From Rhodospirillales bacterium (GTDB lineage: Bacteria; Pseudomonadota; Alphaproteobacteria; Acetobacterales; Acetobacteraceae): a stretch of 64,000 nt of DNA. The notes beneath the pieces were generated by a model that had not been told where the DNA came from, searched no databases, and worked only from the letters and a program-made list of their open reading frames with translations. Positions within the stretch are counted from its first letter, which is position 1, and each line of letters opens with the position of its first letter. Positions 4,835-63,865 of this stretch are shown here, in pieces. The translations under genes were made by a program, and so were the position numbers. The stretch spans positions 53,908 through 117,907 of the forward strand of contig CANFKS010000001.1 of NCBI GenBank assembly GCA_947447625.1. Reading direction: 5' to 3'.

Positions 4835-6400
4835 ATGACCACCATCCAGATCGGCGAAGAAGCCATCGCCCGCTTCGCCCAGGCCGCCATGCCGACCTCA
4901 GCACCCGCCACCACGCGGGATCGCGGCCTCGGCCCCTTCAAGCGCCTCGTGCTCCGCGGCGCCACCGTGCTCGACGGCACCGGCGCCCCCGCCTGGGGCC
5001 CGGTTGACATCGTTGTCCAAGGTGGCCGCATCACCGAGATCCAGCGCGTCGGCACTCCCGGCGTCAAAATCAAGCCCGCCGGCCGTCCCGCCCCCGGCGA
5101 CCATGAGATCGACTGCGAAGGCAAATACGTCACCCCCGGTTTCATCGACTGCCACGGCCATGTCGGTGTCGCCTACCACAGCAGCGTGGGCCCGCAGCCA
5201 CCGGCCGACTACGTCTACAAGCTCTGGCTCGCCCACGGCGTCACCACCATCCGCGAAGCCGGTTGCCTCAACGGCCTCGCCTGGACCCTCGACCAGAAGC
5301 AGCGCGCCGCCCGCAACGAGATCGCCGCGCCCAACATGGTGATCCACTCATACTTTCCTGCCGTCCCCGACATGATGAAAACAATTTTTACGCCCAGCCA
5401 GGCGCGGGACTGGGTGCGCGCCATCAAGGACAAGGGCGCCGACGGCATCAAGTTCTTCGGCGCGGCGCCCAACATCATGGAAGCCGCTCTCGACGAAGCG
5501 AAAACCCAGGGCCTGCGCACCTGCTGCCACCACGCCCAACTCGCCGTGAGCCGCATGAACGCCCTCACCACGGCCAAATGGGGCCTGACCAGCGCCGAGC
5601 ACTATTACGGGCTGCCCGAAGCCCTTTTCGAAAAAACCACCATCCAGAACTTCCCGGATAACTACAACTACGGCGACGAATATCTCCGCTTCTCCGTCTC
5701 CGGCCAGATGTTCCAGCAGGCCGCCCAACCCGGCAGCCAGAAATGGAACGACACGCTCGACGCCTTCCTTGAAACCGGCTTCACCTTCGTGCCCACCTTC
5801 AACATCTACGAAGCCAACCGCGACGTCATGCGCGCCCGCCGCGCCGATTGGCACGAGCGCTACACCCACGACACCGTCTGGAAATTCTACCAACCCGCCC
5901 GCGGCGCCCATGGCTCCTACTGGACCAACTGGACCACCCAGAACGAACTCGACTGGAAACAGCACTACCGCCTGTGGATGACCTTCATCAACGACTACAA
6001 AAACCGCGGCGGCCGCGTCTGCGCCGGCTCCGATTCAGGCTTTATCTTCCAACTCTACGGCTTCGGCCTGATGCGCGAATTCGAACTTCTCCAGGAAGCG
6101 GGGTTCCACCCCCTCGAAGTGCTCCGCGCCGCGACCTCTCACGCTGCCGACCTGCTCGGCATCGGCGATGAAACCGGCACGCTCGAAGTCGGCAAACGCG
6201 CCGACATTCTGATCCATGACCAGAACCCGCTCGCCGATTTCAAACTCCTCTACGGCACCGGCGCCATGCGCATGAACGAGACCACCGGCGCCGTCGATTG
6301 GACGCACTGCTTGTCCACGACCATCAAGGACGGGCTGGTGTTCGATACGCGGCAACTTCTCGATGACGTCGAGAAAATGGCGCAAGATTCGAAGCAGTAA
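4835..6400 (+). CDS. Amidohydrolase family protein
   Basis: VTPGFIDCHGHVG, distal CAGSDSG, RADILIHDQNPLADF. Confidence 0.9.
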   Translation: MTTIQIGEEAIARFAQAAMPTSAPATTRDRGLGPFKRLVLRGATVLDGTGAPAWGPVDIVVQGGRITEIQRVGTPGVKIKPAGRPAPGDHEIDCEGKYVTPGFIDCHGHVGVAYHSSVGPQPPADYVYKLWLAHGVTTIREAGCLNGLAWTLDQKQRAARNEIAAPNMVIHSYFPAVPDMMKTIFTPSQARDWVRAIKDKGADGIKFFGAAPNIMEAALDEAKTQGLRTCCHHAQLAVSRMNALTTAKWGLTSAEHYYGLPEALFEKTTIQNFPDNYNYGDEYLRFSVSGQMFQQAAQPGSQKWNDTLDAFLETGFTFVPTFNIYEANRDVMRARRADWHERYTHDTVWKFYQPARGAHGSYWTNWTTQNELDWKQHYRLWMTFINDYKNRGGRVCAGSDSGFIFQLYGFGLMREFELLQEAGFHPLEVLRAATSHAADLLGIGDETGTLEVGKRADILIHDQNPLADFKLLYGTGAMRMNETTGAVDWTHCLSTTIKDGLVFDTRQLLDDVEKMAQDSKQ

Positions 6401-6404
6401 GCAT

Positions 6405-6521
6405 GTTCTTTTTTGGAAAAAAGAACCAAAAAACTTCTGTCCGTTTGGCACCGAGTGGGGGAAAATGCTCAATCGAAATAGGTGAACATCTTTTTGCTTC
6501 TTTTCCTGCAAAAAAAGAAGC
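6405..6521. repeat. Intergenic element bounded by two A/T-tract hairpins (GTTCTTTTTT-GG-AAAAAAGAAC and GCTTCTTTT..AAAAGAAGC)
   Basis: Inverted repeats at 6405-6414/6417-6426 and 6496-6504/6513-6521. Confidence 0.7.
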
Positions 6522-6530
6522 CCTTCCCTC

Positions 6531-7511
6531 ATGACTGACTTCATCCTGCTAACCGGCTTCCTCGGCAGCGGCAAAACCACCCTCCTCGTCGATTTCCTTC
6601 GCCACCCCGAGGCCGCCGACACCGCCGTCATCGTCAACGAAGCCGGCGAAATCGACATCGACGGCGCCGTCATCGCCGCCGATGCCGGCGACCTCCCCAT
6701 GGCCATGCTCGCCAACGGCTGCGTCTGCTGCTCCATCGCCAATGACCTGCTCTACACCATCGAAGCCCTTATCGCCGCCCGCGCCGCGCAAAACCTCCCC
6801 CCTTTCCGCCGCATCGTGCTGGAAACCAGCGGCCTCGCCCAACCCGGCCCCATCATCCGCTCCCTCGGCGAACTCGGCCCCCTCGGCATGCGCGTCCACG
6901 TTATCGCCACATGCGATGCAGCCGCCCCGGTCTTTGAGCAGGATGGCTTCGAAACCGCCGCCGCCCAACTCACCGCCGCCGGCACCATCGTTCTCACCAA
7001 ACTCGACCGCGCCGACCCACGCGCCATCGCCCATCTCGACGCCAGCCTCGCCGGCATCAACCCGCTCGCCACCCACCTCATCGAACCTGACTCAGCACGG
7101 CGCGCCCTTCTCGCCTTCACCACGGATGCCCCTGCCAGAACCATCCCCACCCTGATCGAAGGACACCCCCGCATCACTGTGCTTACTGCCCGCATCGACG
7201 GGGCACCCATCGACGCCATCCTTGAATGGCTCGAAAATCTCTCGGGCCTGGCCGGCGAACGCCTCCTGCGCCTTAAAGGCGTCCTCGCGCCCTCAGACAT
7301 GCCGGAACGGCTGCTCTTTCAGGCGGTCGGCAGCACCTTTGACGCTCCGCGCCGCTTCACCGGCACAGCAGCCAATGGCCTCGTCCTCATCGCACGTGAT
7401 CTCCGGGCCGACGACATCGCCGCCCTGCAGCCCAGTTTTCCCCTCGTCCTCACCAGCCAACCCGCTGGCCCCTTTACGCCCCCGACCAAACCAACCCTCC
7501 GCGCCCTCTAG
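6531..7511 (+). CDS. CobW/G3E family GTP-binding protein (metallochaperone-type)
   Basis: GFLGSGKTTLL Walker A, GCVCCSI CxCC metal motif, TKLDRAD. Confidence 0.92.
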   Translation: MTDFILLTGFLGSGKTTLLVDFLRHPEAADTAVIVNEAGEIDIDGAVIAADAGDLPMAMLANGCVCCSIANDLLYTIEALIAARAAQNLPPFRRIVLETSGLAQPGPIIRSLGELGPLGMRVHVIATCDAAAPVFEQDGFETAAAQLTAAGTIVLTKLDRADPRAIAHLDASLAGINPLATHLIEPDSARRALLAFTTDAPARTIPTLIEGHPRITVLTARIDGAPIDAILEWLENLSGLAGERLLRLKGVLAPSDMPERLLFQAVGSTFDAPRRFTGTAANGLVLIARDLRADDIAALQPSFPLVLTSQPAGPFTPPTKPTLRAL

Positions 7512-7550
7512 ATCGGGATGCCTTCGCCCCTCAGAAGGCATCCCGATCTA
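7509..7550. repeat. Perfect palindrome (module 1) between convergent genes; bidirectional terminator-like
   Basis: TAGATCGGGATGCCTTC / GCCCCTCA / GAAGGCATCCCGATCTA, 17-bp perfect arms; contains TAG stops of both flanking genes. Confidence 0.95.
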
Positions 7551-10037
7551 GGCCCCTTCCGGCACCACAGGCAGCATCACGGTGAACACCGCCCCGCCAT
7601 CACGGTTTTCTGCCCGGATCTGCCCGCCCATGTCGCGCACGATCCGGTAGGAGATCGACAAGCCGAGCCCCGTCCCGCTCCCCAGCGGCTTGGTGGTGAA
7701 AAACGGTTCAAACAGCCGCCCCATCGCGTCCGCCGCAATACCCCCCGCCTGGTCCGCCACCGCGATCTCGACCGCACCCTCCGTGCTCGTCACCAACACA
7801 GTGACTTCGCGCTGCGGTCCATCCCGCCCATCGGCCGGCCCATAGGCATCCACGGCATTGGAGACCAGGTTCATGATCACCTGCTCGAACGGCGCCTCAT
7901 GCCCCAGCACCCACACCGGTTCCTCAGGATAGCGCAACCGGATCCGCACCTGCCCCGCCTGCACCCGCCGTTCAATGATCGCCAATGCATCATCGATCGC
8001 ATTCAGCGGATCGAACGGCGCCGCCGGCGCGGTATCGCTGCGGCTGAACGCCCGGATGCGCCGGATCACCGCGTCCGCCCGTTCGACCAGCCCGGCAATC
8101 TTCGCCACCCGCGCAAGGACTTTCTCGCGCCCCGGTGTCGCCTCGGGGATTTCAAGAGACAACGTCTCGGCATGCAACTCGATCGCGGCCAGCGGTTGGT
8201 GCAATTCATGTGCGATACCGGCCGCCATCTCCCCCAAGAAGGTGAGCTTCGACGACTCCTGCAACTGATCCCGCATCCGCGATTCCACCGTCACATCGAC
8301 GACAACCCCAGCGATAATCGCTACCGAACTCTCCCATCGTACCAAGAATCCCGAGTCCCTTACGCGCACCTCGTTCCCGCTGCGCGTTGTCACCGTGTAT
8401 TCGAACACAGCCTGCCCCTCGGTCAGCACCTGCTGCGTGAAGGTTCGGCTGTCTTCGCGAAACGACGGCGATGCCACCGAGGCCAGGAACCCCGGCCCTG
8501 CCAACTCCTCCATCGTATAGCCCGTGATCCTGGACGCACTTTCCGTGAAGAATTTCTCTACCAGTTCAGCACCGCCGTCCGGTAGCAACCGAAGCCGCAA
8601 CTCGTAGAGCGCCACCGGCGAATTTGTCGTCAGGCTCTCAAGCCGCCGCCGCGACTCGCCGAGCGCCGTCATATCCCGGAAGACCGCGACAAAGCGCCCC
8701 TGCCCAGATTGCCCCGGAAACCCCAACACCGGAGTGGACACGACCGATACCCAGATCATGGCGCCATCCGCCCGGAACATCCGATACTGAATCGGCTCCA
8801 GATGCAGGTCGTTGCGCAGCAACCGCTCCATGCGTTCGTTGCGGATGGGCAGATCCTCCGTGTGATACCGCAGCAACGACGGGTCGGCCAGCAGCGTCTC
8901 CGCCTCAATCCCCAGCATCGTCACACAGGACGGCGAGACATAGGTGAACCGCTGCCGGCCGACCGCATCGAATTCCCACATGATCACCACATCGCGCAGG
9001 CTCTCAGCAAGTTCCGTCATACGCAGCAGCCCGCGCTCCGCCTCCGCCCGCCCAACCTTCTCCGCCCGCTTGTGCCGCCAGATCACGCCCAGCCCCAGAG
9101 CCAAGGCATACACGAGAAAAATGCGCCCCCATAGCGGCAGCACATTGCCTGCCAGCATCCTCTGCGCCATCGACGCACGCTGTCCGACCGTCGCCTCGTC
9201 GATCGACATCGCGACCACCAGCCCAAGTTCGTGAACCTTGCGCAACGCCACCAAATGCTGCGCGCCCGCGCCGTCCACCACCCGGGCATCCACCCGCCCC
9301 GTCGCCGCCACTTCCGCGAAAAGCGCCGCCGGCGGCATCGGCATCTCCGGGGCGGAACTGCCAAGCAACACCCCGTCAGCCCGGAACAAGGCTGAATTCC
9401 CGACCCGGCCACCCTCGATCCGCGGTTGCATATCCACCAGCGACGCCGGATTCATGCCGAGCACCGTTACCGCGACCAACCGCCCTCCGCCGTCCCGCAG
9501 CGCTCGCGCATAGTGCACCACCGGCGTCTTTATGTTCCGCCCGATCTCCACATCCGAGATGAAACTGGCCAGCCCGCCCTGCACCATCATCGAAAAATAT
9601 TGCCGGTCCGCCAACGACATGCCAACACGCACGCGCTCGTCCGAGTGCCATGACATCCGGCCCGAGGCATCGAGGGCAAATACCGCTCGCGCCTGCGTCA
9701 AAGGCCGTGCCAGATCGGTCTTCACCTCAGCTACCGCCGCAAGATAGGCCGGCCCCTCATTGTCGCTCCACTCGACCCGCCCTGTGGCGATCACCCGCAC
9801 CAGGCCATGCAACGCGTCGAACACCAGGAACCGTCGCTCCATCAAATCGGCGCGCAAATCCGCCTCGGCACCCACCGCACTGGCCGCTTCGCTCTGCGCT
9901 GCGGAAAGCGTTGCCTTGCTCGTGAGCAACCCATATGTCCACAGGCCGAGCGCCACGAGCAGCGGCACCAAGAGCACAATCACAGCTTGTTTGAGAGACG
10001 GCGACGGGCGCAGCATAAGTGCCGCCCTGGTCATCAT
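7548..10037 (-). CDS. Hybrid-input sensor histidine kinase: TM, Cache-like extracytoplasmic domain, PAS domains, HisKA, HATPase_c
   Basis: LGEMAAGIAHELHQPLAAIELH (H-box), NLVSNAVDA (N-box), GTGLGLSISYRIV (G-box); start chosen at MMTRAAL. Confidence 0.88.
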   Translation of the reverse strand: MMTRAALMLRPSPSLKQAVIVLLVPLLVALGLWTYGLLTSKATLSAAQSEAASAVGAEADLRADLMERRFLVFDALHGLVRVIATGRVEWSDNEGPAYLAAVAEVKTDLARPLTQARAVFALDASGRMSWHSDERVRVGMSLADRQYFSMMVQGGLASFISDVEIGRNIKTPVVHYARALRDGGGRLVAVTVLGMNPASLVDMQPRIEGGRVGNSALFRADGVLLGSSAPEMPMPPAALFAEVAATGRVDARVVDGAGAQHLVALRKVHELGLVVAMSIDEATVGQRASMAQRMLAGNVLPLWGRIFLVYALALGLGVIWRHKRAEKVGRAEAERGLLRMTELAESLRDVVIMWEFDAVGRQRFTYVSPSCVTMLGIEAETLLADPSLLRYHTEDLPIRNERMERLLRNDLHLEPIQYRMFRADGAMIWVSVVSTPVLGFPGQSGQGRFVAVFRDMTALGESRRRLESLTTNSPVALYELRLRLLPDGGAELVEKFFTESASRITGYTMEELAGPGFLASVASPSFREDSRTFTQQVLTEGQAVFEYTVTTRSGNEVRVRDSGFLVRWESSVAIIAGVVVDVTVESRMRDQLQESSKLTFLGEMAAGIAHELHQPLAAIELHAETLSLEIPEATPGREKVLARVAKIAGLVERADAVIRRIRAFSRSDTAPAAPFDPLNAIDDALAIIERRVQAGQVRIRLRYPEEPVWVLGHEAPFEQVIMNLVSNAVDAYGPADGRDGPQREVTVLVTSTEGAVEIAVADQAGGIAADAMGRLFEPFFTTKPLGSGTGLGLSISYRIVRDMGGQIRAENRDGGAVFTVMLPVVPEGA

Positions 10038-17423: not shown

Positions 17424-17620
17424 TAACAAAATTCGTCAAGTGGAGCGGGTTCGCTGCGCTTTGGGCAGATTGCCGGCAGGCCAATCCTGTATTTTTTCGG
17501 TATCGCACGATCTCCGTATAAGTCGGCACGGCGGACCCAGTCCGACTTTTTGCAGACGGGGGCGGTTGCTTCACGAGAGGTGGACGTGGTCAGCGGATGC
17601 GCGAGACCAGCGGGGCGGTA

Positions 17621-17671
17621 ATACCGAAACCCTGTGATCGCTGCTCTTCCGCGATCACAGGGTTTCGGTAT
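17621..17671. repeat. Palindrome module 4
   Basis: ATACCGAAACCCTGTGATCGC / TGCTCTTCC / GCGATCACAGGGTTTCGGTAT, 21-bp perfect arms; second copy at 63738-63788. Confidence 0.95.
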
Positions 17672-17707
17672 GCGCGCCGGGTTGGTGGGCGGCGGCGCGC
17701 GGAAAAA

Positions 17708-17750
17708 GACTTATACCAAGGGTCGCGCTTTGCGAGCCTTGGTATAAGTC
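17708..17750. repeat. Palindrome module 5
   Basis: GACTTATACCAAGG..CCTTGGTATAAGTC, 14-bp perfect arms; second copy about 63827-63865. Confidence 0.93.
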
Positions 17751-17757
17751 CCTATCG

Positions 17758-17823
17758 CCTGATGATTTTTGGTGATTCCACCAAAAATCATCAGGCTCCA
17801 GCAGAGGACATCCCGCTCTACGC
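17758..17823. repeat. Palindrome module 3 plus half-arm of module 1
   Basis: CCTGATGATTTTTGGTG / ATTC / CACCAAAAATCATCAGG (17758-17795), then CATCCCGCTCTA. Confidence 0.92.
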
Positions 17824-24527: not shown

Positions 24528-25310
24528 ATGCGCTGGATCAACTTCACCCACGCCGACACCACCGCCTATGGCATCGTCGAAGGCGACACCGTGGCCGAAA
24601 CGCGCGGCGACATCTTCTCCACCTGGGAACGCACCGGGCGCAGCTTTGCGCTATCCGCCGTCAAGATCGAAATCCCGCTGATCCCGCGCACCTTCTATTG
24701 CGCGGGCCTCAACTACGTCGATCACCTCAAGGAAGCCGCCGACAAGGCCGGCACCGTCCCCACTATCCCCGACCGCGCCGAAATCGGCTACCGCGCCCAG
24801 AACGCCCTCATTGCCCACGAGGAAGACGTCATCATCCCGCGCGAAGCCACCGAGAAAATCCACTATGAGGGCGAACTCGTCGTCGTCATCGGCAAGAAGG
24901 TGAAAAACGTCACCGAGGCCGACGCGCTCGACTGCGTCTTCGGCTATACCATCGGCAACGATGTCTCCGAACGCACATGGCAGAAAGCCGATCGCACGTT
25001 CTACCGCTCGAAAAACACCGATACGTTCAAGCCGATGGGCCCCTGGATCGAAACCGACCTCGATCTCGACCGCGCTCACACCACCGTGAAGCTCAACGGC
25101 GTGCCCCGCACCAGCTTTGCCACCAACCACATGCTGTTCTCCATCCAGCATTTCATCGCCGTCACCAGCCAGTACTGCACTCTGTATCCCGGCGACGTGA
25201 TGTGGATGGGCACCGACGGCACATCGCCCGACGTGAAAAGCGGAGACCTCGTCGAAGTCGAAATCACCGGCATCGGCACGCTGCGCAACCGATTCGTGCG
25301 CGAGGCGTGA
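24528..25310 (+). CDS. Fumarylacetoacetate hydrolase family protein
   Basis: FYCAGLNYVDHLKEA, YEGELVVVIGKK, GYTIGNDVSERTWQ. Confidence 0.93.
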   Translation: MRWINFTHADTTAYGIVEGDTVAETRGDIFSTWERTGRSFALSAVKIEIPLIPRTFYCAGLNYVDHLKEAADKAGTVPTIPDRAEIGYRAQNALIAHEEDVIIPREATEKIHYEGELVVVIGKKVKNVTEADALDCVFGYTIGNDVSERTWQKADRTFYRSKNTDTFKPMGPWIETDLDLDRAHTTVKLNGVPRTSFATNHMLFSIQHFIAVTSQYCTLYPGDVMWMGTDGTSPDVKSGDLVEVEITGIGTLRNRFVREA

Positions 25311-26377
25311 TGTCCTCTTCCCCTTACGACATCCACCGCCGCCAGATCGAAGCCTACCTGCTCGCCTGGAACATGCCGCCCGCCACCGCGGGCGGCACCG
25401 CCGAGATCATGGCCTGGGCCGACCTGCACGGCATCGACAGCCACGGCATTTCGATGATCCCGACCTATGACGCCCATCGCCGCAACGGCAAGATGCGGAT
25501 GGAAGCGATCCCCCGCATCGTCAAGGACACCCCGGTCTCCGCCCTGATCGACGGCGACGGTGGCCTCGGTCATCCCACTTCGCGCCTCGCGATGGACACC
25601 GCCATCACCAAGGCCAAAACGGTCGGTATTGGCGTCGTCGCGGTGCGCAATTCATCCCATTTCGGCGCTTGCGGCTTCTACGCTCGCATGGCCGCCGACG
25701 CCGGGCTGATCGGCCTCGTCACCACGTCCGCCTCCGGCATCCAGGTCGCCCCCACCGGCGGCCGCGGCGCCCGCCTCGGCACCGACCCCATCGCCTTCGC
25801 CGCTCCCGGCCGCGACGGCGAGCCCTTCCTGCTCGACATGGCCACCACGACCGTCGCTGCCGGCCGCATCCGCAACAAGGCCAACGAAGGCCTCCAATGC
25901 CCGCCCGGCTGGGTCCAGACCAAGGACGGCATACCCAGCACCGACCCGCTCGAAGCCCGCGAAAAAGGCGGCTTCCTGACCTCCCTCGGCGGCACCCCCG
26001 AAGGCAGCAGCTACAAGGGCTACGGCCTCGCCGCCATGGTCAATATCCTCTCCTCCGCGCTCTCCGGCGCCACCATGATCACCGACCCGACTCACACGAA
26101 GGTCCCCGGCACCATGGGCATCGGCCATTTTTTCATGGCGCTCGACCCCGCCCTGTTCCGCGATCCCGATGACGTCCGCGCCGACATCGTTTCCTTCTGC
26201 GATGCGTTGCGCGCCACGCCGTCGGTGGATCCCGGCGAGCCCGTGATGGTTGCCGGCGATCCCGAACGCCGCCGCGCCGCCATTCGCCTGCAATCCGGCA
26301 TCCCCATCGCCCCCGGCCTGCATACGCAACTCAAGCAGGTCGCCGAAGCCAGCGGCGCCACGTGGCTACTCGGTTAG
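25310..26377 (+). CDS. Ldh family (malate/L-lactate-type) NAD(P)-dependent oxidoreductase
   Basis: ADLHGIDSHGISMIP, VRNSSHFGACGFYA; start overlaps previous stop (TGATG). Confidence 0.9.
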   Translation: MSSSPYDIHRRQIEAYLLAWNMPPATAGGTAEIMAWADLHGIDSHGISMIPTYDAHRRNGKMRMEAIPRIVKDTPVSALIDGDGGLGHPTSRLAMDTAITKAKTVGIGVVAVRNSSHFGACGFYARMAADAGLIGLVTTSASGIQVAPTGGRGARLGTDPIAFAAPGRDGEPFLLDMATTTVAAGRIRNKANEGLQCPPGWVQTKDGIPSTDPLEAREKGGFLTSLGGTPEGSSYKGYGLAAMVNILSSALSGATMITDPTHTKVPGTMGIGHFFMALDPALFRDPDDVRADIVSFCDALRATPSVDPGEPVMVAGDPERRRAAIRLQSGIPIAPGLHTQLKQVAEASGATWLLG

Positions 26378-26442
26378 AGCGGGATGCCTTCCGATCGGCG
26401 AATTCATCCCGCTCTCGCTCTTTGTTTGATCGCCTGATTCAC
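26376..26442. repeat. Palindrome module 1 plus linker module 2
   Basis: AGAGCGGGATG(26376-26386)..CATCCCGCTCT(26405-26415) then CGCTCTTTGTTTGATCGCCTGATTCA. Confidence 0.88.
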
Positions 26443-26537
26443 GCCGCCAGTGATTGCAGCTCAGGCGATCACGCTCTCACACTATCGGCGGTGGCTCGCC
26501 TCTGCTACTGAGCCGCCGCCATCATAGGAGCATCACC

Positions 26538-35461: not shown

Positions 35462-35478
35462 TCTCCCATACCCCAGAG

Positions 35479-35575
35479 CCTGATGATTTTTGGCGGAATC
35501 GCCAAAAAGTCTGAATCAGGCGATAAAACAAAGAGCGAGATCGGGATGCCTTCGCAATCAGAAGGCATCCCGATC
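35479..35575. repeat. Composite element: module 3 (imperfect) - linker 2 (rc) - module 1 palindrome
   Basis: GCCTGATGATTTTTGGCG/GAAT/CGCCAAAAA..ATCAGGCGATAAAACAAAGAGC then GATCGGGATGCCTTC/GCAATCA/GAAGGCATCCCGATC. Confidence 0.93.
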
Positions 35576-35592
35576 CAGGCCACTCCACACCG

Positions 35593-41692: not shown

Positions 41693-42313
41693 ATGAACCG
41701 CCGCACCCTGCTCGCTCTCGCCGCCCTCCTCCCGCTGCCTGCTGTGGCGCAGAGTGTTTCCGCGCAGGATAAGGCCGATATCGCGCGTATTGAGCGCTAT
41801 CTGCTGACGCTGCGAACACTGCGCGGCCGCTTCCTGCAGATCGCCCCCAATGGTGACACCTCGGAGGGGGCTGCCTGGCTGCAACGGCCGGGCCGGATGC
41901 GGTTCGAATACGATCCACCCACCCCCTTCCTGCTGGTGGCAGGATATGGCGGGGTGATGTTTCATGACCGCAAGTTGCAGCAGACCAGCACCTTCCCCCT
42001 CTCACAAACCCCACTCGGCATCCTTCTGTCCGACCAGCCGAAACTCTCCGGCGACATCACCGTCGAGGGGATCGACCGCCAGCCGGGCATGGTTCAGATC
42101 ACCTTGTTCCGCACCGGCCACCAGGGCGATGGCAGCCTGATGCTGACCTTCGCCGAGACCCCGCTGCAACTCCGACAATGGTCGGTGCTCGACGCCCAGC
42201 GCCTGGAAACCCGCGTCTCGCTGTTCAACATCACGCTCGGCGAAACCTTCGACCAGAAACTGTTCGACATCACGGACCCCCGCACCCAACCCGGCGGCGC
42301 CCCGGGGCGCTAG
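41693..42313 (+). CDS. lolA: Outer-membrane lipoprotein carrier LolA
   Basis: Signal peptide; YLLTLRTLRGRFLQIAPNGDTSEGAAWLQRPGRMRFEYDPP. Confidence 0.88.
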   Translation: MNRRTLLALAALLPLPAVAQSVSAQDKADIARIERYLLTLRTLRGRFLQIAPNGDTSEGAAWLQRPGRMRFEYDPPTPFLLVAGYGGVMFHDRKLQQTSTFPLSQTPLGILLSDQPKLSGDITVEGIDRQPGMVQITLFRTGHQGDGSLMLTFAETPLQLRQWSVLDAQRLETRVSLFNITLGETFDQKLFDITDPRTQPGGAPGR

Positions 42314-42362
42314 AGCCTGATGATTTTTGGTGGAATCACCAAAAATCATCAGGCTCTAGCGC
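42307..42362. repeat. Perfect palindrome (module 3) between convergent genes, contains both stop codons
   Basis: GCGCTAGAGCCTGATGATTTTTGGTG / GAAT / CACCAAAAATCATCAGGCTCTAGCGC, 26-bp perfect arms. Confidence 0.97.
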
Positions 42363-61307: not shown

Positions 61308-61322
61308 CAGAAAACGACTGGA

Positions 61323-61389
61323 GCCTGACGGTTTTTGGCGATTCCGCCAAAAACCGTCAGGCGATCAAACAAATGGGGAGAGCGGGATC
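61323..61389. repeat. Palindrome module 3 plus linker 2 (rc) plus half-arm of module 1
   Basis: GCCTGACGGTTTTTGGCG / ATTC / CGCCAAAAACCGTCAGGC (18-bp perfect arms), then GATCAAACAAATGGGGAGAGCGGGATC. Confidence 0.93.
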
Positions 61390-63737: not shown

Positions 63738-63865
63738 ATACCGAAACCCTGTGATCGCTGCTCTTCCGCGATCGCAGGGTTTCGGTATGCGCGCCGGGTT
63801 GGTGGGCGGCGGCGCACGGAAAAGGACTCATACCAAGGGTCGCGCTTTGCGAGCCTTGGTATAAG
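63738..63865. repeat. Composite repeat: palindrome module 4 - spacer - module 5 (copy of 17621-17750)
   Basis: ATACCGAAACCCTGTGATCGC..GCGATCGCAGGGTTTCGGTAT, conserved spacer GCGCGCCGGGTTGGTGGGCGGCGGCGCACGG, CATACCAAGGGTCGCGCTTTGCGAGCCTTGGTATAAG. Confidence 0.95.

Follow-up and report, generated by a model that had tools for sequence, protein, structure and literature searches.

Repeats of the CIR type (Caulobacter CcrM-associated intergenic repeats) measure about 110 bp and consist of two arms and a linker, with TA at the ends and a GANTC site at a loop; a 2007 review described their mobility as unresolved and listed TA duplication as unknown (PMC2229807). The RUP element of Streptococcus pneumoniae is an intergenic TA-site MITE of about 107 bp, present in about 100 copies, for which the resident IS630-Spn1 is thought to act as mover in trans (PMC2229807). 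In Brucella, the 842 bp IS711 element duplicates TA at YTAR sites and is associated with the Bru-RS palindromes (PMC2266754). We describe here a palindrome located between two convergent genes, which is very probably the B-only form of a ~104-bp CIR-type non-autonomous mobile element (MITE) that inserts into YTAR, duplicates TA and rebuilds the stop codons that it enters.

The palindrome is located at 7508-7551 of the window (the whole stretch of 64,000 nt that was analysed), between cobW on the plus strand and a histidine kinase gene on the minus strand. Its arms, CTAGATCGGGATGCCTTC and GAAGGCATCCCGATCTAG (7508-7525 and 7534-7551), are complementary at 18/18 positions (100%) and enclose an 8-nt loop, with each arm one base longer than in the preliminary description. 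The features of the locus are as follows.

7509..7550, no strand: solo B hairpin element TAGATCGGGATGCCTTC-GCCCCTCA-GAAGGCATCCCGATCTA, read in the sequence, and a family member by genome search.
7508..7511, no strand: left CTAG; the cobW stop is the TAG at 7509-7511, and the TA at 7509-7510 is presumably one copy of the target duplication, judging from the family data.
7548..7551, no strand: right CTAG; the kinase stop is the CTA at 7548-7550 on the minus strand, and the TA at 7549-7550 is presumably the second copy of the duplication.
6531..7511, plus strand: gene for a 326-aa CobW-type GTPase, with Pfam cobW and CobW_C domains, that runs up to the element; a relative's protein stops at the corresponding position.
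7548..9983, minus strand: PAS/HisKA/HATPase_c sensor kinase gene ending at the element, based on ORF and domains; again, a relative's protein stops at the corresponding position.

The palindrome had been claimed to lie exactly between the convergent genes, which agrees with the sequence and coordinates, and the assignment of the TAG at 7509-7511 to the end of the CobW gene and of the CTA at 7548-7550 to the TAG of the kinase gene is borne out by ORFs and domains. The kinase start at 9983 was the choice of the codon-usage caller, with a longer GTG frame extending to 10178. Folded as RNA, the palindrome forms a hairpin of -40.2 kcal/mol (z = -7.2), and 0/200 shuffled sequences were equally stable. 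This copy begins with TAGATC rather than TAGAGC, with the matching change (GATCTA) present in the opposite arm, and it is a solo B without a GANTC site. The same convergent cobW/kinase pair is present without the palindrome in a relative at 78% protein identity, where both proteins end at equivalent positions; the gap between the two genes differs in that relative and is not alignable with that of the window, with TGA used for the stops. Excision at 7509 would leave GCGCCCTCTAGGCCCC, with one CTAG predicted to hold both stops.

The arm core CGGGATGCCTTC..GAAGGCATCCCG has 86 exact copies in the 4.28-Mb genome of this freshwater bacterium, compared to 0 for a reversed-pattern control, and >130 copies were found genome-wide when up to 3 mismatches were allowed. 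The usual form is a composite of ~104 bp, consisting of TAGAGC-hairpin A-linker-hairpin B-GCTCTA, of which the 7509 palindrome represents the right half (B). In the composite consensus, A is TAGAGCCTGATGATTTTTGGTG-GAAT-CACCAAAAATC(TGA)ATCAGGC, the linker is GATCAAACAAAGAGT and B is TAGAGCGGGATGCCTTC-loop-GAAGGCATCCCGCTCTA, and the 104-bp consensus folds into two linker-joined hairpins of -59 kcal/mol on either strand. The composite contains the GANTC site GGAATCACC at the A loop and a second GAATC. An A half was located in front of B in 71/83 copies read with their flanks, by strict scoring, and a diverged A is present in some of the 12 remaining copies. The A, B and A+B forms all start with TAGAGC (TAGATC at 7509) and finish with GCTCTA, and the TA is kept at the left end of 57/71 composites and at the right end of 62/71. 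Twenty copies dispersed in the genome are identical across 104 bp. Further members of the family are present in the window.

17757..17796, no strand: A hairpin with decayed ends, by family comparison.
26375..26477, minus strand: variant composite, with the left boundary counted by hand; the gene at 25307-26377 takes its TAG stop (26375-26377) from the B end.
35474..35577, plus strand: full composite A-linker-B, by family comparison.
42311..42358, no strand: solo A hairpin with the TAG stops of both convergent genes (42311-42313; CTA 42356-42358), from the palindrome and family comparison.
61320..61385 (end approximate), plus strand: diverged A hairpin and linker, no recognisable B, by family comparison.

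The arm at 42.3 kb had been thought unrelated to that at 7509, but the two are the A half and the B half, respectively, of one composite. In L051 and L073 the usual B half is attached to a variant A half (GAGCGTGATCGCCAAAGGTGGAATCACACGG..), which in L045 adjoins a composite; the A and B modules thus appear to get reshuffled. Paired positions of the arms co-vary more than in shuffled data (7 cells versus a mean of 2.0 and a maximum of 6), a count which includes the 7509 copy and does not control for relatedness of the copies; either selection for the hairpin or one arm having served to repair the other could be the cause. Tandem arrays of composites, with a 102/101-nt period and one TA in common, are present in seven stretches (L036, L048, L049, L056, L065, L082 and L088). 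These arrays are head-to-tail, with 13 B-A junctions, no B-B and at most one A-A junction (counted with 1 mismatch), which could result from the instability of long palindromes or from a directional mechanism. Some array neighbours are 8-18% off consensus, and hence not all arrays are recent duplications. Two other palindromic repeat families, ATACCGAAACCCTGTGATCGC.. and CTTATACCAAGGGTCGC..GCGAGCCTTGGTATAAG, are located side by side at 17606-17750 and 63738-63865 of the window, with the second family also adjoining a composite copy in L050; both are probably other dispersed repeats.

Placement relative to genes was assessed in 61 stretches (360 kb), all of which except the window were picked for holding a B copy, with genes called by a simple codon-usage caller written for this analysis. 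None of the 76 element clusters was inside a predicted gene, with 31 in convergent, 37 in tandem and one in divergent gaps and 7 at stretch ends, while the element-free gene pairs comprised 178 tandem, 41 divergent and 23 convergent pairs. The stop codon was exactly rebuilt in 36/68 mapped insertions located in tandem or convergent gaps, a count that covers the window sites. Counted by junction, 38/99 gene 3′ junctions coincided exactly with the stop (22 at the left and 16 at the right element end). Restricted to junctions whose empty gap measured 10 nt or more, this was 30/85, versus 1.07 expected when overlapping-gene sites are left out, and none of 200,000 simulations gave more than 7. The stop was TAG in 40/47 genes ending on an element, and TGA in 201/285 other genes. 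Three sites carry the stops of both neighbouring genes, at 7509 (B-only), 42311 (A-only) and L065:6595-6698 (composite), and in silico removal of the element and one TA at 7509, 42311 and L065:6595 gave a CTAG containing both stops.

The opposite pattern, in which the majority of copies would be far from stops or in promoter regions, was not found (36/68 exactly at a stop, 0 in genes and 1/69 in a divergent gap). The proposal of two sequence modules sharing one placement rule was right about the rule, which is real, beyond chance and common to the palindrome at 42.3 kb, but not about the independence of the modules, which are A and B of one composite. In comparable element-free gaps, 20/57 YTAR sites are already stop codons, compared to 36/68 insertions (p = 0.05), and target choice hence explains most of the placement rule.

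The flanks of the composites with TA kept define the target: the left TA is preceded by C or T in 55/57, and the right TA is followed by A or G in 62/62, with this YTA..TAR pattern also holding away from stops. A left TAG occurs together with a right TAA in the same copies (C..A in 20, T..A in 6), which limits the duplication to TA. Filled and empty sites were compared for homologous repeats of rhizobia. In Rhizobium, the filled L136 and the empty L148 are 97% identical, and differ by a 113-bp insertion consisting of the element and a TA at CCG-CTAG-AGATC (CCGCTAGAGATC), with the gene ending in ..KPYALIDL* stopping at the same TAG, filled or empty; the pair L137/L141 agrees with this TA duplication. 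Similarly, comparison of Sinorhizobium L138 with L142/L143 showed that a gene ending in ..EELQAS* retains its TAG, with the right-hand junction of L138 being less clean. On these alignments, both cases are insertions into a stop codon that leave the protein unchanged. Another rhizobial homologue (L139:1501-1614) is located beside the stop of a VOC-family gene, and the protein is ~15 residues longer than in the strain with the empty site (L144), its frame running on into the element.

We propose that a transposase acts on the TAGAGC..GCTCTA ends and would insert the element into YTAR, often CTAG, with duplication of the TA. With a G as its first base and a C as its last, each beside the duplicated TA, the element would rebuild a TAG or TAA target as TAG without a change to the protein. 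Insertions inside genes would be lost by selection while those in stop codons would be neutral, allowing copies to build up at gene ends, and where convergent genes have a common CTAG (a 4-bp overlap of two TAG stops), a single insertion would place both stops on the element. The placement rule would thus follow from the mode of insertion, with its YTAR target, TA duplication and TAG-rebuilding element ends, and both genes at 7509 would end on the palindrome because the element entered the TA of the stop and rebuilt it. Three observations fit this account less well: the relative at 78% identity has a different gap and TGA stops at its cobW/kinase pair, the match between the ends of a candidate driver IS and the repeat ends is limited to 12/17 positions, and insertion in random orientation does not predict arrays that are head-to-tail only.

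A search for IS5-type transposases in this genome found a resident IS of 842 bp, with perfect 17-bp TIRs TAGAGCGCGTTGACATT and two overlapping ORFs that carry the DUF4096 and DDE_Tnp_1 domains.

L150:1409-2250 (G000:C44:32476-33317): IS5-type element copy, multicopy, 842 bp.

Ends of this element were found on contigs 44, 57, 98, 187 and 191; a DEAD-box helicase gene has one copy exactly in its TAG stop, and a 380-aa frame is adjoined by another at its TAG. In a Microvirga relative (76% identical), the TIR is kept and has CTA/TAG flanks. The TIR agrees with each repeat end at 12/17 positions, half of which are the TAGAGC motif, and 3/3622 other TA-starting 17-mers match as well, which makes the case for the resident IS5-type element as driver of the repeat no more than suggestive. 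The same mobile-element account with a resident IS630-family element as driver is a possible but weaker reading, since IS630 elements duplicate TA, as in RUP/IS630-Spn1 (PMC2229807), and IS630 DDE domains are present in the genome. No matching TIR pair was found at the IS630 DDE_3 loci. Another multicopy IS, taken as IS630-like from its relatives, is represented by left ends at five contig ends (L164-L168), which start with TAGAGCGTGTCTGCAAG and hence TAGAGC, and one copy lies against the end of a composite. Over the first 17 bases of the left end, the only end of this IS that was seen, there is agreement with the repeat ends at 8-9 positions, versus 12 for the IS5-type TIR. The 43 subterminal bp of the IS630-like and IS5-type elements are 84% identical, which is odd for two IS families. 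The driver would most likely be the IS5-type element, and less likely the IS630 element.

A role as bidirectional terminator or stabiliser of mRNA 3′ ends, selected at convergent gene ends and with stops built into the hairpin as compact genes end there, would account for the very stable hairpin, for the strong convergent and 3′ bias of the copies (31 convergent and 37 tandem versus one divergent) and for arm changes that preserve pairing. However, there is no U-run on either strand, with the stem followed by GGCCCC on one and by AGGGCG on the other, and 0 terminator-like sites were found in 6000-9000, so that the terminator role implied in the preliminary description fares poorly as the cause of the placement. 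Near-identical dispersed copies, copies far from stops, tandem arrays and the TA duplication at filled and empty sites of the homologues are instead those of a mobile element, making selection as a terminator improbable as an explanation, although a terminator role may possibly have been gained after insertion. Still more remote is a RAYT-mobilised REP-type element, or a palindrome-associated derivative of IS200/IS605, which use a Y1 tyrosine transposase and single-strand transposition without target duplication. Such an element would fit the hairpin form, the solo and paired units, the head-to-tail-only arrays and insertion beside a fixed short target, but Y1_Tnp (PF01797) is absent from the genome (assembly 96% complete), and this reading is largely refuted by the duplication of TA at filled/empty sites of the rhizobial homologues, with a symmetric YTAR target.

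Insertion of a MITE at YTAR sites gives the link between repeat and stop codon a simple mechanical reason. A hairpin positioned exactly at a stop codon need not be a terminator, as a TA-targeting element with TAG-building ends looks alike, and both gene ends and stop-codon usage beside such repeats are best read with insertion in mind. The filled/empty pairs give TA duplication for rhizobial homologues of CIR-type repeats, and a candidate driver IS can be named. The broader proposal, for and against which we see about equal weight, is that TA-duplicating transposases of the IS5 type drive the CIR-type repeats and their relatives in rhizobia, all of them being MITEs, and that stop codons are a main safe harbour for these repeats. 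With TAG rebuilt jointly by target and element ends, both the element and its autonomous IS could enter stop codons, including even the shared stops of convergent genes, and leave proteins unaltered.

Judged by sequence, the composite of the 7509 family has CIR-type anatomy and shares homology with repeats of rhizobial plasmids. A search with the consensus matched 79 plasmid records, mainly of Rhizobium (65) and Sinorhizobium (11); the plasmid matches listed align over consensus positions 1-79 with about 72-80% identity (best E = 8e-8). The exact B palindrome was absent from the 59 other relatives searched; its absence from the four same-genus genomes points to expansion of the B sequence in this lineage. 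The linker pattern (up to 1 mismatch) gave no match in the other class genomes searched, which makes the sequence lineage-specific, with homologues reached only by looser searches. Rfam gave no match in the window, and the phage collection only 20-nt chance matches. Five plasmid homologues were read, and all kept the A hairpin with its odd right arm, ends resembling TAGAGC and a linker similar to that of the composite. These ~110-bp repeats of Rhizobium and Sinorhizobium plasmids, which are probably RIME1, share the A hairpin, including its asymmetric right arm (..AAAATCTGAATC..), and the TAGAGC/GCTCTA ends, and have a similar linker, but differ in having another B hairpin sequence and a longer loop region (..ACACTTTT..).

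The composite has the ~110-bp unit of two stem-loop arms and linker described for the CIR repeats (Chen & Shapiro 2003, as reviewed in PMC2229807), and shares with them the TA termini, GANTC in or next to one loop, alphaproteobacterial host and strictly intergenic location (0/76 clusters in genes). The likeness is one of described anatomy rather than alignment, and in contrast to CIR the hairpin sequences are lineage-specific, A-only and B-only forms occur, and TA duplication is seen for the rhizobial homologues. Bru-RS1 and Bru-RS2 of Brucella are also palindromic alphaproteobacterial repeats and are associated with IS711, a likeness drawn by description only (PMC2266754). RUP, with IS630-Spn1, resembles the composite in size, copy number and intergenic TA placement, but has a single terminal stem, with no relation shown between the two. 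The resident IS5-type element is 842 bp with two overlapping ORFs, like IS711, and both encode their transposase, whereas the repeat is non-coding.
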